DNA of 64,000 bases, taken from Bacteroidales bacterium. Its GTDB lineage: Bacteria > Bacteroidota > Bacteroidia > Bacteroidales > GCA-2748055. The stretch's first letter is position 1. Each line of letters begins with the position of its first letter. Shown piece by piece: positions 25,294 through 61,047 of the stretch. The stretch spans positions 1-64,000 of the forward strand of contig JARGFP010000002.1 in assembly GCA_029210585.1 (NCBI GenBank), given 5' to 3'. The position numbers were made by a program, and so were the translations under genes. The notes beneath the pieces were generated by a model. That model had not been told where the DNA came from. It was given only the letters and a program-made list of their open reading frames with translations, and ran no database searches.

Positions 25294-26142
25294 ATGCCTG
25301 TTAAAATCAGATTAGCGCGACGAGGTCGCAAGTTTTCAAAGATCTACTCTATTGTAGTTGCTGATGGCAGGGCGCCACGGGATGGTAAGTACATTGAAAC
25401 ATTGGGTCAGTATGATCCCAATACAAATCCTGCTACCATTGTTCTGGATTTCGACCGTTCACTCGAATGGTTGCAAAAAGGCGCCCAACCTACCGATACC
25501 TGTAGGGCCATTCTCTCCTATAAGGGAGTATTGTACAAGAAACACCTCATGGAAGGTGTAAAAAAGGGTGCTTTTGACGAAGCGGAAGCTGAGAAGCGTT
25601 TTCAAACCTGGATGAATGAGAAAGAAGGAAAGATCCAGGCCAAGGTGGACAGACTGCAGAACGAGTCAGAGGCACAGAAGAAAGAACGGATGGCCGCTGA
25701 ATCCAAAGTCAGAGAGGAACGCGCCCTTGAAATCGAGAAGCAAAGGTCCGAACTGGTAGCAAAAGAAGCTGCTGCTGCAGCCGGTGAAGAAGCTGAAGAA
25801 ACCGAAGAGGCTGTGGCTGAGGCCCCGGAAGAGACTCCTGCAGAAGCAGAAGCACCTGCAGCTGAAGAGGTAAAGGAGGAAGCTGAGGAAGCACCTGCAG
25901 CCGAGGCACCCAAAGAGGAGCCAAAAGCCGAAGATGTGAAGGAGGAGAAGGCCGAAGAGAAGAAGGAAGAACCCAAGGCCGAGGCACCCAAAGAGGAGCC
26001 AAAAGCCGAAGAGGTGAAGGAGGAGAAGGCTGAAGAGAAGAAGGAAGAACCGAAAGCAGAGGAACCCGCGGCTGAAGAGAAAAAAGAGGAAGCCAAAGAG
26101 GAGTCTGCAGACGATGATAAGAAAGAAGAAGAGAAGAAGTAA
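25294..26142 (+). CDS. rpsP: 30S ribosomal protein S16 with long acidic-basic tail
   Basis: 282 residues, against 80-180 in most bacteria. Residues 1-80 are a normal S16 (MPVKIRLARRGRKFSKIYSI, then DGRAPRDGKYIE). Residues 80-150 extend with a charged helix; residues 150-282 are a low-complexity tail of Ala, Glu, Lys and Pro with two 26-residue direct repeats (203-228 and 229-254, unit AEAPKEEPKAE...). S16 is an assembly protein of the small subunit. Extended S16 tails are common in Bacteroidota; a tail of this length and repetition looks extreme. It is followed by rimM after 17 bases, the usual ribosome-assembly pair. Confidence 0.95.
   Translation: MPVKIRLARRGRKFSKIYSIVVADGRAPRDGKYIETLGQYDPNTNPATIVLDFDRSLEWLQKGAQPTDTCRAILSYKGVLYKKHLMEGVKKGAFDEAEAEKRFQTWMNEKEGKIQAKVDRLQNESEAQKKERMAAESKVREERALEIEKQRSELVAKEAAAAAGEEAEETEEAVAEAPEETPAEAEAPAAEEVKEEAEEAPAAEAPKEEPKAEDVKEEKAEEKKEEPKAEAPKEEPKAEEVKEEKAEEKKEEPKAEEPAAEEKKEEAKEESADDDKKEEEKK
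25900..26055 (+). repeat. 78-bp in-frame tandem repeat inside rpsP
   Basis: Two copies, 25900-25977 and 25978-26055, nearly identical in DNA and coding the 26-residue unit of the S16 tail. Four base differences visible, of which one changes the amino acid (Asp/Glu). Confidence 0.9.
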
Positions 26143-46328: not shown

Positions 46329-46901
46329 ATGAAAGCATTCAAAAAATATATGTTCATTTCGCTGGCCATCCTGCTGCTTGTATCCTGCGGCCGTTCCGGT
46401 GATCCGGGACATTGTTTTATTTCAGTTGACTGGGAATACTGGAATGAGGACTACGGGGTTTATTATTACAAAGATAACAATCCCGATGTTCCGGAATCAC
46501 AATACATTGATCCCGGGTTTTACTACGACAGCTATCCCGGGTACTATGAATATCACTACGAAGCGGAAGATCCCGACGAATGGTTTTCCTACGAAGGTTT
46601 TTACGAGCTGTTCCAGAACCCCGGCACCGAGGGAGGACTTTTTCGCGACGGTTGGGACGGGGCAGATACCTATTTCGACCTATACCTGTATGTGTATGCC
46701 AGGAAAGGGCTGGGCCTGAAGAACCTCCAGGTCACCAAATCAGCCACACAGCCTGAAACACCCGCCCTTGAAACCACTTCCAGGTCGGGACGCGCCATCA
46801 CGGAAGTACCCGTACGGACAGAGACCAGGAGCTGGGAAAAGACCGACGGTGCATGGACCATCAGGGTGCAGGAAGAGGTGAAGGTGTACCCCAGGAAGTA
46901 A
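46329..46901 (+). CDS. Tyrosine- and aspartate-rich lipoprotein of unknown function
   Basis: 190 residues. Lipoprotein signal peptide (LLLVSCG, Cys 20). The mature part is notable for a block at 33-100 with many Tyr, Asp, Glu and Pro (for example YGVYYYKDNNPDVP and YYDSYPGYYEYHYEAEDPDE), then a more ordinary C-terminal part. No known family. A full -7 element TATTTTTG lies at 46295-46302. The DNA of its last codons (GAGGTGAAGGTGTACCC) recurs in decayed form after the stop. Confidence 0.65.
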   Translation: MKAFKKYMFISLAILLLVSCGRSGDPGHCFISVDWEYWNEDYGVYYYKDNNPDVPESQYIDPGFYYDSYPGYYEYHYEAEDPDEWFSYEGFYELFQNPGTEGGLFRDGWDGADTYFDLYLYVYARKGLGLKNLQVTKSATQPETPALETTSRSGRAITEVPVRTETRSWEKTDGAWTIRVQEEVKVYPRK

Positions 46902-47312: not shown

Positions 47313-48059
47313 ATGTACCAGAAACCTGAAATAATTTGTATTGCAGTAGCCTTCCTGTTTGTGTTTTCGATATCCTTTTCTCAGGACAGTTCACAGGACA
47401 ACAGTGGATCTTTCAGTGAAATTTTAACCGTCGCAACTGATAAGTACGGCACCAACCAGCAACTGGCCAATGGTGTTTATTTTGAGGACACGTATCGTGG
47501 TGCCAGGGGACATCCTTACCTCCTGGAGGATCAGTTCACCAGGGGTGCTGTGACCTTTTACGGGAAGGAATACCGGGACGTTTCCCTGAAGTATGACCTG
47601 TACGGACAGCAGTTGCTGATCTCCCACCAGGAAGATGCCATGGTCTTTACCACCGTGCTTGCTAAGGAACTGACAGAGACTTTCATTATCCATGGGATCT
47701 GTTTCAGAAAACTGGTGCTGATGCAAGAGGAACCGTCTTACTACCAGGTTGTTGCGGAGGAGGAAGTACTAAAGTGTTACTACGCATGGTTCCGGACCAG
47801 GTATGAGTCGATCGGGGAAAACGAAAACAAACTGTATTCATTCACGGAAGATCAGCAACGACGCTACCTGTTGATGGACCAGGAGGTCTACCGGTACTTC
47901 AATAACTGGACCTTTGTCAGGATTTTTGACCGATCACTGCGCGGAGCGATTCGGTCCCACCTCAGGCAAAACGACCTGAAAATTCAAAAGGCCACAGATG
48001 AGCAGGTCGGAGAGGTGATCCGGTTCATTACTCAACTTATTCACCCATCTGACTTATAG
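47313..48059 (+). CDS. Exported protein of unknown function, first gene of the TonB receptor/DUF4249 operon
   Basis: 248 residues. N-terminal signal peptide (MYQKPEIICIAVAFLFVFSISFSQ shortened: hydrophobic core IICIAVAFLFVF, cleavage after FSQ). The mature protein has a repeated beta pattern in the first half (NGVYFEDTYRGARGHPYL, VTFYGKEYRDVSLKYDLYGQQL) resembling an outer-surface hypothetical type often seen near TonB receptors, and a helical, basic C-terminal half. No family named. Six bases separate its stop from the receptor start, so it belongs to that operon and may be a periplasmic accessory. Start at 47313 (first Met before the signal core). Confidence 0.72.
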   Translation: MYQKPEIICIAVAFLFVFSISFSQDSSQDNSGSFSEILTVATDKYGTNQQLANGVYFEDTYRGARGHPYLLEDQFTRGAVTFYGKEYRDVSLKYDLYGQQLLISHQEDAMVFTTVLAKELTETFIIHGICFRKLVLMQEEPSYYQVVAEEEVLKCYYAWFRTRYESIGENENKLYSFTEDQQRRYLLMDQEVYRYFNNWTFVRIFDRSLRGAIRSHLRQNDLKIQKATDEQVGEVIRFITQLIHPSDL

Positions 48060-48065
48060 GCACCT

Positions 48066-50846
48066 GTGAATCAACTTGCATCCCGAATCGTCCTTTTCAT
48101 CCTCTTCACAGGTGTTCCAGGAATCCTGCTCAGTCAAGAGCCCCTGCAGGTTAACAGGTCTGTAGATGAGATGGCACTCGAAGAATTTATCGGTACACTC
48201 CAACGCGATACCAACCTGGAATTTTATTACAAGTCAGCATGGATCGATTCTGTCGTCGTCAGGAATGTACGTAAGGGCGATCTGCTGGAACAGGTGCTTG
48301 CTCAGGCGTTCCGGGGAACCGGATTGAACTTTTTCACTGAAGACAACCAGGTATTTATTTTCCAGGGTGATCCGGTTGTTGCATCACTGCCCGAATATGA
48401 CGACCACCGGAAAAAAGCCTTCACCGGAGTGGACGCAACCAGCGAGGGAAACGGTGACCAGTATATGACCACCATCAATATCTCCCGCGAAAATATGATC
48501 ACTGTTGGTGAGGAGCATGCAAACAATAACGGCAGGAAAAAACGTGTACAGGGCAGGATCCTGAATGGCAGCACGGGGGAGCCGCTTATCGGGGCAACCA
48601 TTTATGTGAAGCAACTTTCACTGGGTACCATTTCCGACGTGGACGGCAATTTCTTCCTGGAACTGGCACCAGGCCAGTATACAATTTCCATGGATCATAT
48701 GGCGATGAAAGCACTTGAATATGGTCTGAAGGTACTATCTGATGGGTCGTTCACGATCGAACTTGAGAACGAACTGATCGAGCTGGAGGAAATAACCGTG
48801 ATTGATAAGCGCAGGGGCAATGTCGACGGCATGCTGATGGGGTACGAACGGATTACCACCCGGTCCATGAAGGAGATTCCGGTGGTAATGGGAGAAAAGG
48901 ATATTCTGAAGGTCGCACAGATGCTCCCGGGTGTTCAGAATGTGGGGGAGGGGTCCTCGGGATTCAATGTACGTGGAGGATCTCCCGACCAGAATATGTT
49001 CTATATCAACAATATTTCTGTATACAATACATCCCATCTCTTCGGGTTTTTTACTGCATTCAGTCCTGACATTATCAGCGATTTCTCCCTCTACAAGAAC
49101 AATGTACCCGCGAAATATGGCGGTCGTATTGCGTCTATCTTTGAGATCAATACCCGTGAGGGGAACAAGAATAATTTCTTCGCCCAGGGAGGAATCAGTC
49201 CCATTACCGGGCATGTTTCAGCGGAAGGTCCGGTTATAAAAGAGAAAGTGACTTTTGTGGCAAGCTACCGGAGCACCTATTCCGACTGGATACTGAACAG
49301 GATCAACGACCAGGACCTGAAGAACAGCAATGCCACTTTCAGCGATGCAACGCTGGGGCTGAATGCTGAGATCAACACCGACAACCGGCTGAGATTCTTC
49401 TATTACCAGAGTGCGGATAAATTCTCACTGTCGACACGCAATGACTACAGTTATGCGAACAGGGGCGCTTCTCTGTTATGGGACCACAGGTTCAACAACA
49501 ATTTAACCCTTGATGTTTCAGCGGCAACAAGCAATTACGGGTTCGGAAATATTGACAAAAACAATGTCAGTGAAGCATATGAGCAGGATTATTCCATCCG
49601 TCATTCTGAAGCCCGTGCCGACTTCACCTGGCTGGCGCCCGGCAATCACCTGATCGAATTCGGGGCAAACAGCGTCCTGTACCAACTGAACCGGGGAAAT
49701 ATCATTCCCTACGGACCTGAATCCAGGCGAATCCCCATCAGTCTTGGCGAGGAACAGGGAGTGGAAAATTCCCTCTATCTTTCGGATGAGTTTTCCCTGC
49801 TTCCCAGGCTGAATTTACTGCTGGGACTTCGTTACAGTCATTATATGTACCTCGGACCGGCAGATGTGATCCGGTACGACGAGGGATTGCCGAAAAACCA
49901 GTTCACTGTAATCGGGTCAGAAAGTTATGCCCCATGGGAGAAGGTGCAGTCCTATTCTGGTTTCGAACCCAGGGTTGTACTGAATTATTCGCTGGGCAAC
50001 AATACATCGGTCAAGGCTTCCTACAACCGGCTGCAGCAGTATATCTTCCTGCTGAGCAATACCATTGCGCTGGCACCAACCGACCAGTGGAAGCTGACAG
50101 ATTCCCACATTACACCGCCGTTATCGGACCAGGTTTCGGCAGGGTTTTACCATGATTTCCAGGACCAGGGAATCAATATCTCCGTGGAGGCCTACAAGAA
50201 ATGGATCTCGAATGTTGTGGAGTATAAGGATGGCGTCGACTTTATCTCGGGTGCACCTGTTGAAACCCAGGTACTGCAGGGAACTCAGGATTCCAGGGGA
50301 ATCGAGGTGATGGTAAAGAAGAATACCAACCGGCTGACCGGCTGGGTCTCCTATACCTGGTCCCGTTCCATGGTAACGGTGGACGGATCCTTCGATGAAA
50401 TGCAGATCAATGATGGATCGCCTTTTCCATCAAATTACGACAGGCCGCACAGCTTCAACCTGGTATCCAACTACCGGATCAGCCGCAGACTCAGTTTTTC
50501 ATCCAATATTGTCTATACTTCCGGCAGGCCTGTAACCCTTCCGATTGCGGTATACTATTCCGAGAACCAGCAATACCTGTATTATTCTTCCAGGAACAAA
50601 TACCGGATCCCCGATTATTTCAGGATCGACCTTTCGGTGAACCTGGAGGGAAACCTCAAATTCAAGAAGCTGGCACACAGTTTCTGGATGCTGAATATTT
50701 ATAATCTTACGGGCAGGGAAAACGCTTATTCGGTTTTTTACGAAGCCAGGGCAGGGCAGATCAAAGGATATAGATTATCCATTTTTGCACAGCCCATCGT
50801 TACACTTTCATGGAACTTTAAATTCGGTAATTATAACAGTGAGTAA
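48066..50846 (+). CDS. TonB-dependent receptor with N-terminal STN domain
   Basis: 926 residues, GTG start at 48066, needed to include the signal peptide (IVLFILFTGVPGILLSQ). After it: an STN domain at about 26-105 (LEEFIGTLQRDTNLEFYY), a CarboxypepD_reg domain at 158-250 (VQGRILNGSTGEPLIGATI), a plug with FNVRGGSPDQN and the barrel. STN domains in receptors usually bind an anti-sigma factor for cargo-dependent signalling, but no sigma/anti-sigma pair is in the window. The final residues (WNFKFGNYNSE) overlap the next gene. Partner genes are two DUF4249 lipoproteins, not SusD. Confidence 0.93.
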   Translation: MNQLASRIVLFILFTGVPGILLSQEPLQVNRSVDEMALEEFIGTLQRDTNLEFYYKSAWIDSVVVRNVRKGDLLEQVLAQAFRGTGLNFFTEDNQVFIFQGDPVVASLPEYDDHRKKAFTGVDATSEGNGDQYMTTINISRENMITVGEEHANNNGRKKRVQGRILNGSTGEPLIGATIYVKQLSLGTISDVDGNFFLELAPGQYTISMDHMAMKALEYGLKVLSDGSFTIELENELIELEEITVIDKRRGNVDGMLMGYERITTRSMKEIPVVMGEKDILKVAQMLPGVQNVGEGSSGFNVRGGSPDQNMFYINNISVYNTSHLFGFFTAFSPDIISDFSLYKNNVPAKYGGRIASIFEINTREGNKNNFFAQGGISPITGHVSAEGPVIKEKVTFVASYRSTYSDWILNRINDQDLKNSNATFSDATLGLNAEINTDNRLRFFYYQSADKFSLSTRNDYSYANRGASLLWDHRFNNNLTLDVSAATSNYGFGNIDKNNVSEAYEQDYSIRHSEARADFTWLAPGNHLIEFGANSVLYQLNRGNIIPYGPESRRIPISLGEEQGVENSLYLSDEFSLLPRLNLLLGLRYSHYMYLGPADVIRYDEGLPKNQFTVIGSESYAPWEKVQSYSGFEPRVVLNYSLGNNTSVKASYNRLQQYIFLLSNTIALAPTDQWKLTDSHITPPLSDQVSAGFYHDFQDQGINISVEAYKKWISNVVEYKDGVDFISGAPVETQVLQGTQDSRGIEVMVKKNTNRLTGWVSYTWSRSMVTVDGSFDEMQINDGSPFPSNYDRPHSFNLVSNYRISRRLSFSSNIVYTSGRPVTLPIAVYYSENQQYLYYSSRNKYRIPDYFRIDLSVNLEGNLKFKKLAHSFWMLNIYNLTGRENAYSVFYEARAGQIKGYRLSIFAQPIVTLSWNFKFGNYNSE

Positions 50847-52020
50847 CATCAGAAATATAGTATCAAAGGGGATAAACCAGTTGCTGGCTCCGGCGGTCTT
50901 CTTTGCATTGCTGATGAATTTCAGCAGTTGCATTGAACCATACACGGCAGATGTGGAGGAAGCAACCGACCTGATCTCGGTGGAAGGGAGCATCATCAGG
51001 GGTGAACTGGTTCAGACGGTGGTGGTAACGCGTACGTCTGCCATGGTAAATCCACAGTTCCTGCCGGTAAGGGATTGCATGGTGGAAGTGGTGGATGACC
51101 AGGGAGCAGGGTTTCTCTTCAACGAAAATCCAGATGGAACCTATACCAGGACCATCCCGGATGAAATGCTGAAGATCGGCCGAAAGTACCAGCTCAGGGT
51201 TACCACCCCGCGGGGAGAACGGTATGAATCATCCTATGAGCGACTGAACAGCGGTACAGAGGTGGATTCTGTCTATTACCGGGTTGAGGACAGAATTGAT
51301 AAGGTGGCCGGAGAGGAACTTACCGGCCTGCAGTTCTATGTGGACCTTGAGGCAGCGGATTCCATCTCAAGGTATTACAGGTGGAGCCTGGAGGAGACTT
51401 ATGAGTATACTTCAGTGGCCCCCATCTCCTATTATTACCTGGATGAAAGCCTGGAGCAGTATTATCCGGAGTATGATACGGAATTTTTCAGGTGCTGGAA
51501 GACAGCCGGGATCAAGGACCTCTTCCTGTCGAGCACCAAGAACCTGGTGATGAATGAAAAAAAGATGATCCCGCTGAATTATGTTTCTACAGAGAGTGAC
51601 CGGCTGAAAATTAAGTACAGTTTGCTCATACGGCAGTATACAATGTCGGAAAACGCCTACCGGTACTGGCTGAATCACAAGATCGCCACCCAGGAAGCAG
51701 GCGGATTGTATACACAGCAGCCCGGTCAGCCCGTCAGCAATATCGTTAATGTAGATGACAGTACAGAGCAGGTGCTCGGTTTTTTCTGGGCCTCCCACAA
51801 GACAGAACAGCGATTGACGATTCCACGGATCAATGACCTGCCGGTTTTCGGGGATCCGTGCGACCTGGTGGAGTTCAGTTTTGCCGACCATGGAAAGGGG
51901 CCCTTCCCGATGTATATCTGGGTGGACCCCATGAGTGGAATAAGATATACCAGCAACCGGTTCTGTTTTGTCTGTACGCTGAAAGGTGGCGAAACGCAGC
52001 CGCCGGATTGGTGGGAATAA
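50839..52020 (+). CDS. DUF4249 lipoprotein (first of tandem pair)
   Basis: 393 residues. GTG start at 50839 overlaps the receptor stop by eight bases. Lipoprotein signal peptide with lipobox NFSSC (Cys 32). The mature part has the DUF4249 pattern: ISVEGSIIRG, then VVTRTSAM, an Ig-like N-terminal region, and a C-terminus with C-x-x-C in FCFVCTLKGGETQPPDWWE. DUF4249 proteins are known only as partners of TonB receptors in Bacteroidota, where they are presumed to be surface lipoproteins serving like SusD. The next gene is its paralogue. Confidence 0.87.
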   Translation: MSNIRNIVSKGINQLLAPAVFFALLMNFSSCIEPYTADVEEATDLISVEGSIIRGELVQTVVVTRTSAMVNPQFLPVRDCMVEVVDDQGAGFLFNENPDGTYTRTIPDEMLKIGRKYQLRVTTPRGERYESSYERLNSGTEVDSVYYRVEDRIDKVAGEELTGLQFYVDLEAADSISRYYRWSLEETYEYTSVAPISYYYLDESLEQYYPEYDTEFFRCWKTAGIKDLFLSSTKNLVMNEKKMIPLNYVSTESDRLKIKYSLLIRQYTMSENAYRYWLNHKIATQEAGGLYTQQPGQPVSNIVNVDDSTEQVLGFFWASHKTEQRLTIPRINDLPVFGDPCDLVEFSFADHGKGPFPMYIWVDPMSGIRYTSNRFCFVCTLKGGETQPPDWWE

Positions 52021-52032
52021 ATATTTTATGTC

Positions 52033-53214
52033 ATGAAAGTGAAACAGGACCTACCTATGACAAATAGAGGAGACCGGCGGAGAGGGACCACCCTCCCGGT
52101 ACTATTCCTGTGCCTTGTTTGCATTTCATTTTCCTGCATTGTGCCTTTCGAGGCTGAGACCGATGAGCGTGTTCATATGCTTTCCATTGAAGGCAGCCTG
52201 ATCAAGGGCCTGGATACCCAAACAGTCTTTATTTCCAGAACTACTGCATTACTGGACCTGCGACTGGATCCTGTGACGGAATGTATCGTTTCGGTGGTAG
52301 ACAACCTGGGCAATGAGTTTTATTATGCCGGGGCGGATGATGGAAAATATGAGGTATCCATACCAGACGAGCAGTTGGTTGTGGACAGGCAGTATAAGCT
52401 CCAGGTGGTTACCCCCGGGGGTGATTTTTATGAATCGGCTTTCGAAACATTGAACCGGGCAGCAGATGTGGATACGGTATATTATGAAGTTACGGATGTT
52501 ATTGACAAAGTCTCGGGAGATGACCTGCAGGGATTGCAGTTTTATATCGACCTGAGGGCATCGGATTCCACTTCCAGGTATTTCAGGTGGAAGCTGAACG
52601 AAACTTTTGAATATACCTCCATCGAACCGGTTACCTATATTATTATGCCCGATACAGTCATTTTCCTGGATAATATATTTGAATTTTACCGTTGCTGGAA
52701 AACCCAGAAAATCACCAGGCTGTTTTTATCAACCACCGAAAACCTGGTACTGAATGAGAAAAAGAAGATCCCGCTTAATTTCGTGTCGACCAAGTCGGAC
52801 AGACTCAAGTATAAATACAGTCTGCAGGTGGAGCAGTACACACTGAGCAAGGGCGCTTACCAATACTGGCAGAAAAAAAAGATTGAAACCCAGGAATCAG
52901 GCGGATTGTATACCCAGCAACCAGGGAAACCGGTCAGTAATATACAACGGATTGGAGATGCAGGTGAAACCGTACTGGGCTATTTCTGGGCTTCGCATAA
53001 AACCGAACAAAGGATTTTTGTACCACGGATTCCCTCGCTGCCCGTACCCGGGGATAATTGTGAAGCGGTGGATTACGACCCGAAAATCCATAAAAGCATT
53101 CCGCGTTACATCTACGTAGATGAATTTCGAAACAGGGTGCTGACAGGTATTTCGTTCTGTTTTGACTGTACACTGAAGCATGGTTCCACAACACCCCCGG
53201 ATTTCTGGGAATAG
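52033..53214 (+). CDS. DUF4249 lipoprotein (second of tandem pair)
   Basis: 393 residues, clear paralogue of the preceding product: same order of motifs (LSIEGSLIKG, YKLQVVTPGG, DKVSGDDLQGLQFYIDL, SGGLYTQQPGKPVSNI) and the same C-terminal CxxC motif in FCFDCTLKHGSTTPPDFWE. Lipobox ISFSC near residue 35 from the ATG at 52033; a Met eight codons later is another candidate. A duplication with retained length and both copies in one operon suggests either a heterodimer or two cargo variants. Gap to the first copy 12 bases. Confidence 0.87.
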   Translation: MKVKQDLPMTNRGDRRRGTTLPVLFLCLVCISFSCIVPFEAETDERVHMLSIEGSLIKGLDTQTVFISRTTALLDLRLDPVTECIVSVVDNLGNEFYYAGADDGKYEVSIPDEQLVVDRQYKLQVVTPGGDFYESAFETLNRAADVDTVYYEVTDVIDKVSGDDLQGLQFYIDLRASDSTSRYFRWKLNETFEYTSIEPVTYIIMPDTVIFLDNIFEFYRCWKTQKITRLFLSTTENLVLNEKKKIPLNFVSTKSDRLKYKYSLQVEQYTLSKGAYQYWQKKKIETQESGGLYTQQPGKPVSNIQRIGDAGETVLGYFWASHKTEQRIFVPRIPSLPVPGDNCEAVDYDPKIHKSIPRYIYVDEFRNRVLTGISFCFDCTLKHGSTTPPDFWE

Positions 53215-53226
53215 AAATTATTATAT

Positions 53227-54945
53227 ATGCAACTTACACGTTTAATACAATCTTTGCTGGTGTCGCTTGTGCTGACATGCTATTGTTCAGGTTCCTTTGC
53301 TCAGCCCACCAATGTTCCCCTGCCTGCTGAACCGGGAGAGGAGGTGCTGTTTTTTACTGACAGGGACATGTATGTGACTACGGAAGAGATCATGTTCTCC
53401 GCTTTTTGCACCGGGCCCGGCGAGGTGCCGGGAAAAGACTGGAGCCAGGTACTGTATGTTGAATTGGTCCGTTGGAACGGAAAAAAGATTGCAGGTACAA
53501 AAGTGCTGATCGCGGAGGGGATGGCACACGGTACCATTGATGTACCAGCCGAAGTTGAATCCGGAAATTATTATCTCCGGGCCTATACAAAATGGATGCG
53601 CAACTATTCACCCTACAACTACAGTTACCTGCTGCTGAAAATCGTCAATCCGAATACCACGGCAACAGAAACGGGTCCGGATGAAAACGCCGTTAAAGGA
53701 GCTCAGCCGGCTGCAGTTACGAACGATGTCACGGACCAGGTCTTTTTTTCAGGAATGAAGGATATATATGGCATGCGGGAACCCGTAACGATTGATATCG
53801 ATGTGAACAGTATGCTTGCCGGCAACAATATTGTGTTGGGTGTTGTCAGGGAACACTCGAAAACCCATCCGGGCGCTTCGTACACCTTTGAAACCCTGGC
53901 AGGAAATGACGGTCCGGCAGCAACGGTTCAGTACTATCCCGAAATCAGGGGCCTGTCCCTTTCAGGAAAAGTAGTGGATGCAGTCCAGGGGCAGCCAGCT
54001 GTACAGGCACGGGTCAACCTTTCGACGGTGGCCGAGCCCTTGTATTTTTCCACAATGGAAACAGATTCAGCGGGAGATTTTTTATTTACATTTCCGGATA
54101 TCCGGGGCGATCATGAGTTCCATATTGCCGTGGAAGGGGCAGAAAGCGGGCAGCTGGATTTGCTGATCGATAACGATTTCTGTACCCGTCCGGTTACCCT
54201 TCCTTACCAGCCTTTTTTCCTTACAGGAGATGAAAAAGACCTCGTCCGTGACCTGGCCCTGAATGCGCAGATCAGGTCCCGTTTTGGAATCAATTCAGCC
54301 TATTCAGCGAGGCCTGCTGAGCAGGCGTATCCTTTTTACGGTGCACCCGACAGGACGATCTATGAAAAGGAGTATATCGAGCTGAAGAACATGGGAGAGT
54401 TTTTTTACGAACTGGTGTATGAGGTCAATGTCAGGCAGACCAACGGCAAGGCATCTCTCTATATGACCGGCATTGGTACACTGGTATCCTATTCTCCCCT
54501 GTTACTGATGGACAATATCAGGATTGATAACATTGATGCACTGCTGGATGTCTCCTGCCGGCGGGTGGAACGGATCGAGGTGGTGAACAGGGGATATGTG
54601 ATCGGTAACAGGTTTTACGGCGGCATCATCAGCCTGTATTCCGAAGCACATGATATGGCTGGCATGAAGCTCGGCGAGGACAATAATTTTTTCGTACTGT
54701 CCCTTCCCGAAGAGAAGGAGATGCGGTTTCCCGATTATTCCGGAGACACCGGTGCCGCGAATGTTCCTGACCGGCGAAATACGCTGGCCTGGTATCCCGC
54801 GGTGAAATTATCTGCAGACAAATCTTCCAGGATCTCATTTTATACGCCCGATGTACCGGGAACATATACCATATACCTTACAGGCGTGAATGAACAGGAT
54901 GGCGCTTTGATGTATGCAACGCAAGAGATCATTGTAGCAGAATAG
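53227..54945 (+). CDS. Secreted macroglobulin (MG2)-like protein of the TonB receptor/DUF4249 operon
   Basis: 572 residues. Signal peptide (cleavage after SFAQ, about 26). The N-terminal 130 residues read as an MG2-like beta-sandwich (LFFTDRDMYVTTEEIMFSA, then SGNYYLRAYTKWMRNYSPYNY): the RDxY/T...W pattern is that of MG2 domains seen in many Bacteroidota exported proteins. The middle has a CarboxypepD_reg-like segment (SLSGKVVDAVQGQPAVQARV) and the end another Ig-like domain. It lacks a thioester motif, so it is not a protease trap. It probably acts as an extracellular or periplasmic structural partner of the receptor. 12 bases after the second DUF4249 gene. Confidence 0.75.
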   Translation: MQLTRLIQSLLVSLVLTCYCSGSFAQPTNVPLPAEPGEEVLFFTDRDMYVTTEEIMFSAFCTGPGEVPGKDWSQVLYVELVRWNGKKIAGTKVLIAEGMAHGTIDVPAEVESGNYYLRAYTKWMRNYSPYNYSYLLLKIVNPNTTATETGPDENAVKGAQPAAVTNDVTDQVFFSGMKDIYGMREPVTIDIDVNSMLAGNNIVLGVVREHSKTHPGASYTFETLAGNDGPAATVQYYPEIRGLSLSGKVVDAVQGQPAVQARVNLSTVAEPLYFSTMETDSAGDFLFTFPDIRGDHEFHIAVEGAESGQLDLLIDNDFCTRPVTLPYQPFFLTGDEKDLVRDLALNAQIRSRFGINSAYSARPAEQAYPFYGAPDRTIYEKEYIELKNMGEFFYELVYEVNVRQTNGKASLYMTGIGTLVSYSPLLLMDNIRIDNIDALLDVSCRRVERIEVVNRGYVIGNRFYGGIISLYSEAHDMAGMKLGEDNNFFVLSLPEEKEMRFPDYSGDTGAANVPDRRNTLAWYPAVKLSADKSSRISFYTPDVPGTYTIYLTGVNEQDGALMYATQEIIVAE

Positions 54946-55182: not shown

Positions 55183-55527
55183 ATGATATCAAATGAATTA
55201 TTAAAGGGAACCCTGAAAACGATCGTGCTGAACCTGCTGGTGGAAAACAACAGGATGTATGGCTACGAGATCACCAGGGAGGTGGAGAAGATCTCAGAAG
55301 GAAAGATCCAGCTCACCTGGGGTGCGCTCTATCCGACGTTACACAAGCTGGAAGCAGACGGGCTCATTGTCTCTGAAGAATACAACATCGGGAAGCGGGT
55401 ACGCAAATACTATCGCCTGACCCCGACCGGGGAAGCGATCTCCCGGGACAAGGTAAAGGAATTTGCGGAGTTTGTGCAGATCATGGGACGACTCATCAAG
55501 CCATCTCCTGGTCTGAATTTCAGTTAG
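55183..55527 (+). CDS. PadR-family transcriptional regulator
   Basis: 114 residues, the short class of PadR. The winged helix is complete: ENNRMYGYEITREVEKISEGKI, then LTWGALYPTLHKLEADGLI (the characteristic GALYPTLHRLE motif) and YYRLTPTG in the wing. PadR proteins are small-molecule or stress-sensing repressors that often control an adjacent membrane protein carrying a PadR-associated helical domain. The next gene fits that pattern. No Shine-Dalgarno before the ATG. Confidence 0.94.
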   Translation: MISNELLKGTLKTIVLNLLVENNRMYGYEITREVEKISEGKIQLTWGALYPTLHKLEADGLIVSEEYNIGKRVRKYYRLTPTGEAISRDKVKEFAEFVQIMGRLIKPSPGLNFS

Positions 55528-55670: not shown

Positions 55671-57170
55671 ATGATTGAACTGCAGGAAAAGCAGATTGAA
55701 AAAATCTCTCTGGACATCGAACAGCAGGGGCTGACCTTTACCCCGCTGAAGAATGAGCTCCTGGACCATATCTGTTGCCAGATCGAAATCGAAATGGAAC
55801 AGGGAATGACTTTCAACGATGCTTACAGGAAAGTCAGGACCGCAATGGGAAGAAAACGCATCAGGCAGATCCAGGACGAGACATTAGTATTAATCAGTAA
55901 AAAATACAGAAGGATGAAACGAATTATGTATGGGTTGGGTGTGGCAGCACCCATTCTTGTTATTATTGCTGCATTGTTCAAAGCCTATCACTGGCCAGGC
56001 GGAGGGGTGATGATCACCCTGGCGCTTTTTATTACCGGCATGGTGTTCCTGCCCCTTTTTGTGATGGTAAGGATCCGGGATACCAGGCGGATGGATGAAC
56101 CGGTGCCACTCGGGCTCTATTTAACCGGTATGATCACTGGAATGATTGCAATCCTGGGAACCCTGTTCAAAATACAGCACTGGCCGGGGGCTTCAATTCT
56201 GCTTACGCTGGGACTGGCGGGACTTGCACTGGGGTTTCTCCCTGCTTTTGCCCGGTACAGGATCAGGGAGGCAAAAAAGAAGAACGAACCCATCAACAGG
56301 AGTTTGTGGATTATTGGAATCATTGCCGGTATGCTGGTGATCGCTGGTACCCTGTTTAAGATCATGCACTGGCCCGGGGCAGGTATTGCGCTTATTATTT
56401 CCTGGTCCATGTTGGCAGTAGTCGTATTACCATTGCTGGTATTGAATCAGCTCAAGCAATCGGAGCAGCGGATCAACAGCTTTTTTGGAATACTCCTCAT
56501 TTCTGTGTCGGCAGCTGTATTCATCATGGCACTCATGCGCAGCACCCCGGAATATTATTCATTCGGGTATGTGGTGATGGAAAACAGTGCGGTGGGACAG
56601 GCCAATTATTATGAGTCGCAAATCATAAATGCGCCGCCGGTAAAAGGTTCTGCAGCGTCCGGTTCCGGTTTTTCAGGGGAAGAGACTTCCATGACCGAAG
56701 TTGCCGTTGGTGAATCTGAAGAGGTCCAGGTGAACGCGGACAAGGCCGCCTTCAGGGATGAAGCTGATGCACTGTGCAGTTATATCCAGTCATTGCGTGA
56801 GGAACTGGCAAAAAATTATTCAGGTGAAGAGGACCAACCCATCACTGACCGCGGAGCAATTGATGCGAGGGAGATGTTCATGGTTGGGAAATCATCGCTA
56901 CCATACCAGTTCATCTCCGAGCGTGACGAAAACAAGATGTACGGGATGCTTGAAGCTTTTCAGGATCATGCATTGGAACTGACAGAGGATGAGACGTTGA
57001 TTACATTCATTGATACCCAGTTCAGTTTCAATCCACCGGAAGAGCTTGACCGGGAAAAATGGAGCAAATTCTGTTTTACGGGACCCCTGATGCATTCCAT
57101 CGCGATTCTTGGCACATTCCAGTCCACGGTGAGGATGGTCGAGCGTGAGATCATTGGTGCTTCAATTTAG
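55671..57170 (+). CDS. Membrane protein with three GldL-like 63-residue repeats and a helical N-terminal domain
   Basis: 499 residues. Residues 1-85 are a soluble helical domain (LKNELLDHICCQIEIEME, then GMTFNDAYRKVRTAMG) resembling the N-terminal HAAS-type/permease-prefix domains encoded beside padR genes. Then three tandem membrane modules, each marked by LFKxxHWPG at 102-110, 165-173 and 228-236: an exact 63-residue period, each followed by (F/V)LP and a basic RIRxxxxxxEP or similar stretch. LFKIxHWPGA is the motif of GldL, the T9SS motor protein. The final 220 residues are extracellular or periplasmic, with a helix ADALCSYIQSLREELAKNY that recalls the N-terminal helices of GldM. GldL has a key Glu in its membrane helix; the modules here lack an evident one. 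It lies 143 bases after padR. Confidence 0.8.
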   Translation: MIELQEKQIEKISLDIEQQGLTFTPLKNELLDHICCQIEIEMEQGMTFNDAYRKVRTAMGRKRIRQIQDETLVLISKKYRRMKRIMYGLGVAAPILVIIAALFKAYHWPGGGVMITLALFITGMVFLPLFVMVRIRDTRRMDEPVPLGLYLTGMITGMIAILGTLFKIQHWPGASILLTLGLAGLALGFLPAFARYRIREAKKKNEPINRSLWIIGIIAGMLVIAGTLFKIMHWPGAGIALIISWSMLAVVVLPLLVLNQLKQSEQRINSFFGILLISVSAAVFIMALMRSTPEYYSFGYVVMENSAVGQANYYESQIINAPPVKGSAASGSGFSGEETSMTEVAVGESEEVQVNADKAAFRDEADALCSYIQSLREELAKNYSGEEDQPITDRGAIDAREMFMVGKSSLPYQFISERDENKMYGMLEAFQDHALELTEDETLITFIDTQFSFNPPEELDREKWSKFCFTGPLMHSIAILGTFQSTVRMVEREIIGASI

Positions 57171-60849: not shown

Positions 60850-60880
60850 AGACCATCGGCTTTATTTTTTCATTATATTC

Positions 60881-61047
60881 GTAACCAATATCAACATATT
60901 TGTAACCAACATCAACATAACAGTAACCAACGTCAACATATTTGTAACCAACATTTTCATATTCGAACCAACGTCAGCATAACCGTAAACAACATCAACA
61001 GAACCTTAACCAACATTATCATATTCGAACTAACTATCAACTAAAAC
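60881..61047. repeat. Array of eight degenerate 21-bp tandem repeats upstream of a Gfo/Idh gene
   Basis: Unit GTAACCAACATCAACATATTT (consensus of positions 60881-60901 and later copies). Starts at 60881, 60902, 60923, 60944, 60965 (20 bp), 60985, 61006, 61027. The core AACCAAC-ATC or ATT recurs in each, while the last three bases alternate among TTT, ACA, TTC, ACC. The array ends eight bases before the ATG of the Gfo/Idh gene. Confidence 0.92.

Follow-up and report, generated by a model that had tools for sequence, protein, structure and literature searches.

A conserved four-part gene set comprising a TonB-dependent receptor, DUF4249 lipoproteins and two predicted exported proteins in Bacteroidota

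The window analyzed here, a stretch of 64,000 nucleotides from a Bacteroidales bacterium, contains five open reading frames on the forward (+) strand that we refer to as genes A to E. Gene A (47313-48059) encodes a 248-residue exported protein without a Pfam family, and gene B (48066-50846, GTG start) a 926-residue TonB-dependent receptor. Genes C (50839-52020, GTG start) and D (52033-53214) encode DUF4249 lipoproteins of 393 residues each, arranged as tandem copies, and gene E (53227-54945) encodes a 572-residue exported protein with an MG2-like N-terminus, a CarboxypepD_reg-like middle, a plug-like domain and no barrel. The genes are separated by gaps of 6, 12 and 12 bases, with an overlap of 8 bases between B and C, which confirms the tight operon proposed in the initial annotation. 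In a Pfam scan of the window proteins, neither a hydrolase nor a sigma factor nor a metal gene was found to adjoin the operon, which agrees with the initial annotation that no such gene points to the cargo. Just upstream (46329-46901, +) lies a gene for a 190-residue putative lipoprotein that is rich in tyrosine and acidic residues and has no family match.

In receptor B, the CarboxypepD_reg, Plug and barrel domains all scored above their Pfam cut-offs. The STN-like region at residues ~27-99 (48144-48362, +) gave a weak match of 17.0 bits against a cut-off of 28.4; the original assignment of B to the STN-type receptors is below threshold for the window protein itself but gains some support from its family, in which 6 of 16 members have an STN match (best E-value 4.1e-7). 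B resembles the receptors of SusCD and RagAB systems in its plug-barrel architecture with CarboxypepD_reg and in its lipoprotein partner, predicted to lie on the surface. It differs from them in scoring only 47.8 bits against the SusC/RagA subfamily model TIGR04056, far under the cut-off of 368.25, which places it outside that subfamily, and no protein of the operon matched SusD. With FecA-type transducers, which operate with FecR and a sigma factor, B would share an STN-like N-terminal domain; in contrast to those systems, neither FecR-like nor sigma-factor genes were seen when the window operon was scanned with Pfam, and the gene for a new protein, A, predicted to be periplasmic, accompanies the receptor gene instead.

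Both C and D matched DUF4249 above the cut-off, with E-values of 2.3e-37 and 2.6e-36, respectively, and their predicted lipidation sites are Cys31 in C (50929-50931, +) and Cys35 in D. The two proteins share 53% sequence identity and are each other's nearest rows in the tree. There they fall, with strong support, into a group of eight proteins in which the fork between the two is not resolved. The confidently predicted DUF4249 structure (pLDDT 92) consists of two beta-sandwich domains of an Ig/FnIII-like type, a further difference from SusCD and RagAB, as SusD is helical. In a fold search the model resembled tandem FnIII receptors with low TM-scores, and we therefore read the likeness as one of fold class, not as a sign of kinship; a sequence search of solved structures with C returned weak matches to a biofilm surface protein and nothing else. 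The C-terminal CxxC motif previously noted in both proteins (C376/C379; CFVC at 51964-51975, +, in C and CFDC at 53158-53169, +, in D) is real and is invariant in an alignment of 21 members. Among 86 wider relatives it is present in 74; in the presence/absence counts for single cysteines the windows around C376 and C379 overlapped, so that these counts do not show the pairing of the two. As a marker of the gene set described below the motif was rejected, because it also occurs in DUF4249 proteins beside STN-less receptors and is missing in 12 of the 86 relatives. The surface-export signal that had been envisaged behind the lipid cysteine was found in part: the consensus there is C-I/V-E-P-Y, with an acidic residue at position +3 in 74% of 104 proteins, but compared with the published SDDDD-type signals (PMC5080379) it is incomplete, and it is absent in D.

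Protein E has an ordinary signal peptide and three recognizable types of domain, namely the MG2-like, CarboxypepD_reg-like and plug-like parts. Its similarity to MG2 is weak (22.4 bits versus a cut-off of 32.8) but family-wide, since MG2 was matched in 14 of 16 relatives, with a best E-value of 5.6e-8 and scores above the cut-off in the L119 and L176 homologues. When profiles were compared, residues 243-482 of E aligned with the CarboxypepD_reg-plug portion of B (E-values of 9.7e-6 and 1.8e-5, probability 78-83%), and a comparison of the E profile with solved structures yielded the SusC homologue RagA (5t3r_D) over the plug, with an E-value of 6.4e-4, and complement C3 over MG2, with an E-value of 0.02. 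The plug-like segment comprises residues ~411-484 (54457-54678, +), and one longer homologue, from L104, passes the Pfam Plug cut-off (26.8 versus 23.9 bits). E differs from alpha-2-macroglobulin and complement C3 in being much shorter, in lacking a visible thioester motif of the CGEQ type and the full set of MG domains, and in having a plug-like domain at its end. These features do not fit the earlier suggestion that E takes the place of SusD; rather, E can be described as a predicted barrel-less plug protein with macroglobulin-type domains. In the literature searched, we found no paper in which a macroglobulin and a plug domain are combined in this context.

A receptor profile was run against a set of genomes in which each species was represented once, and 80 loci were kept. 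Since the query was the receptor alone, its partners were not selected for. Of the STN-sized receptors, 28 were flanked by 6 kb or more on each side; a long DUF4249 gene and an E gene were each found within 9 kb in 28 of these 28 cases and an A gene in 25, while three STN-less receptors with the same flanks had DUF4249 only, with neither A nor E. The STN receptor is thus accompanied by A and by E about as regularly as by DUF4249, in line with the initial expectation that the genes stay together across genomes. The outcome that had been named as speaking against it, conservation of the receptor and one DUF4249 gene only, did not occur. Carriers of the set, hereafter the cassette, include Prolixibacteraceae, Salinivirgaceae, Carboxylicivirga, Ancylomarina, Plebeiobacterium, Saprospiraceae and Salibacteraceae; in Carboxylicivirga, Ancylomarina and Plebeiobacterium the full set is present. 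In Adhaeribacter and Roseivirga the arrangement is B-C-E without a recognized A. At the level of loci, A was not seen at L119, L121, L122 and L127; three of the full-flank STN loci lack a recognizable A.

The gene order is A-B-C-E in most loci. At L104, L108, L111, L114, L125 and L129, E-C is divergent from A-B; L124 has the order C-E-A-B, and L116-L118, L120, L126, L128, L130 and L134 have B-C-E-A. We regard a set that is kept through such rearrangement as better evidence for joint function than a single conserved order. No cargo or regulator gene recurs beside the cassette, the commonest neighbour cluster being present at 7 of 80 loci and joining unrelated signalling proteins. Genes A, B, DUF4249 and E can accordingly be described, at the level of sequence, as a conserved four-part set across distant Bacteroidota. 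At one locus (L055/L143; L055 at G020:C628), intact A and E genes are adjacent to each other, with no receptor or DUF4249 gene within the approximately 10 kb searched on either side.

A receptor gene paired with a DUF4249 gene has been described before: BT2172/BT2173 is a conserved operon of this kind in Bacteroides, and disruption of either gene gives similar phenotypes (PMC11003636). As in that operon, the receptor gene of the window adjoins a DUF4249 lipoprotein gene, an arrangement conserved across genera (PMC11003636). The loci described here have an STN-like N-terminus on the receptor, sometimes multiple DUF4249 genes, and always or nearly always A and E, features that may set them apart from BT2172/BT2173. 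Could the window operon nevertheless be an ordinary pair of the BT2172/BT2173 type, with A and E as mere neighbours? Such pairs have been described and occur widely (PMC11003636), and the window's own genome has eight other DUF4249 places, none with A or E, which adjoin or stand near shorter receptors of 768-809 residues except for one that stands alone. Against this, A and E occur near-strictly with STN receptors over distant Bacteroidota and through rearrangement, and a gene fusion (see below) joins A to the receptor, so that this explanation is already disfavoured and we consider it very improbable. While the receptor-DUF4249 pair is already known, the wider set including A and E appears to be undescribed; we found no description of it in the published papers searched, one of which contains the term DUF4249, with bioRxiv preprints outside the scope of that search, which does not amount to proof of novelty.

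The number of DUF4249 genes per locus is mostly one and ranges from one to five. In a tree of 101 DUF4249 proteins, strong support was obtained for grouping by locus among the copies of L089, L106, L109, L111, L114 and L121, and the L122 copies likewise cluster with one another. Because copies from within a locus cluster as sisters in several lineages, tandem duplication has been repeated and independent. That the duplicated DUF4249 gene defines the system is not supported by the tree or by the usual single copy; for the same reason the C and D pair was rejected as a defining feature and is a local detail of the window. Some cassettes have as many as four or five DUF4249 genes in tandem, and in one genome (G233) two cassettes lie close to each other (L177, L106 and L186). 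Such multi-copy and twin cassettes suggest diversification of the lipoprotein part. The data thus point to the DUF4249 partner as the multiplying component of the system, and a function in ligand recognition would be consistent with this.

Protein A has a signal peptide of the SPase I type with Q at position +1. Neither A nor, consistently, its relatives matched a Pfam family. Its confidently predicted structure (pLDDT 91) has a beta-rich body followed by C-terminal helices; a fold search with this model found no counterpart in the PDB (best E-value 0.17), so that no function can be transferred from the fold, and solved structures searched with the A sequence gave no match. Its likely location is indicated by another genome from this genus (L046), in which A and the receptor form a single reading frame, 1088 codons long and free of stops and ambiguous bases. 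Homology to A extends over residues 11-238, homology to the receptor begins at residue 108 of window B, and the STN region is absent. With A in the place of the missing STN region, this fusion, seen in a single case, assigns A to the periplasm and to the N-terminal end of the receptor. In another fusion (L138:1-2169; genome G020, contig 247), an A-like domain follows a domain of the sialate O-acetylesterase (SASA) type, and the gene immediately downstream encodes a related STN receptor. This single case is the only hint at a substrate, possibly a carbohydrate cargo.

A profile search with A in 148 genomes across the phylum gave a match in 33 of them, and 38 of the matching places were retrieved. 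An STN-sized receptor, DUF4249 and E were all present within 8 kb at 14 of these 38 places, which are the strong A matches except for one in which A itself is broken. None of the three partners was found at the remaining 24, which are diverged A-like places, all at or below 89 bits. This division shows that A belongs to a wider family of stand-alone exported proteins, one branch of which is tied to the cassette. Such stand-alone A-like proteins, some in tandem pairs, occur free of the cassette in other families of Bacteroidota (L187-L208, for example L191, L206 and L207) and represent a widespread unnamed family whose relatives here have no Pfam entry. For this nameless protein family without a known fold, the cassette data offer a first location, predicted to be periplasmic and at the receptor N-terminus.

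Taken together, these observations make it fairly probable that the locus encodes a TonB-dependent uptake system built on the logic of SusCD, with a DUF4249 lid and two accessory proteins. The barrel of B would import the ligand, and C, with its second copy D, would sit on the cell surface as a binding lid. A would act as a periplasmic partner at the receptor N-terminus, either on the STN domain or beside it, and E would be a periplasmic accessory whose free plug-like domain, behind the macroglobulin-type domains, probably contacts the same assembly. We infer that A binds directly to B and that the direction of transport is import. That DUF4249 would lie on the surface and act as a lid follows a published proposal for the family; the title of a preprint cited in PMC11003636 speaks of "lids". 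A precedent for a lipoprotein partner other than SusD is the vitamin B12 system of Bacteroides, in which the surface lipoprotein BtuG forms a stable complex with the TonB-dependent transporter BtuB (PMC10404256). BtuG belongs to another lipoprotein family than DUF4249. To our knowledge, the BtuB-BtuG system has no A- or E-like parts.

That the locus is a coherent unit on SusCD-like logic with other partners, as initially proposed, is supported by the linkage of A, E and DUF4249 to the STN receptor. The reading as a joint machine further draws on the 14 A-anchored loci, the several gene orders, the A-B fusion, the phenotypes of the Bacteroides pair and the lack of any other recurrent neighbour. 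We counted against it the partial export signal, the three STN loci without A, the locus with A and E but without B or C, and the restriction of the fusion to a single case.

The main rival reading is STN-mediated signalling; STN receptors usually signal. B would then be a transducer-type receptor whose STN domain forms a signalling pair with A in place of FecR, so that the ligand alters gene expression or a periplasmic activity and uptake is secondary. The STN-like N-terminus of B, the exact replacement of STN by A in the fusion and the lack of A and E beside STN-less receptors all agree with such a pair. A FecR or sigma-factor gene is absent from the window operon, though, no regulator family recurs in the 80 loci, and apart from its signal peptide A carries nothing that would anchor it in a membrane, which leaves the route to the cytoplasm missing. 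We thus judge signalling to be improbable as the primary function.

The barrel might also serve as the scaffold of a surface display or export machine that presents or releases DUF4249 and E. Up to five DUF4249 copies and macroglobulin-type domains would suit display, and a cargo enzyme is absent. B, on the other hand, retains the complete plug-barrel architecture of a receptor, A and E have ordinary cleavable signal peptides and no recognized surface-anchoring signal, and the closest pair that has been studied is regarded as a TonB-dependent transporter (PMC11003636); we consider this explanation very improbable. The initial annotation had allowed for a distinct class of uptake or display machine; nothing was found that points to display or secretion rather than uptake.

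A further and rather doubtful idea is that A and E constitute an accessory module of TonB-dependent receptors that has not been described before. In this view A would be a periplasmic protein of a new fold that docks at the STN domain or replaces it, and E would be a free-standing plug acting on the same receptor, for example in gating or cargo hand-over. If true, this would be a third use of the periplasmic face of the receptor, beside FecR signalling and plain transport. Bacteroidota rely on TonB-dependent receptors with lipoprotein lids for nutrients, and most systems other than SusCD are uncharacterized; the present result defines a conserved four-part system of testable composition.

Three other features of the window were observed. 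Downstream of the operon, a gene for a PadR-family regulator (55183-55527) adjoins a gene for a 499-residue protein (55671-57170, +) with three GldL_N-type stretches and a match to the GldM N-terminal domain in one chain. By its domain matches, the latter is a fused protein related to components of the type IX secretion motor, located outside a known motor operon. At 25899-26103, a 78-base tandem repeat of 2.2-2.6 copies lies within an open reading frame region and encodes a charged repeat rich in E, K and P. About eight repeats of 21 bases are found at 60875-61041, in the intergenic region between the genes for a Mg-chelatase-type ATPase and a Gfo/Idh/MocA oxidoreductase.
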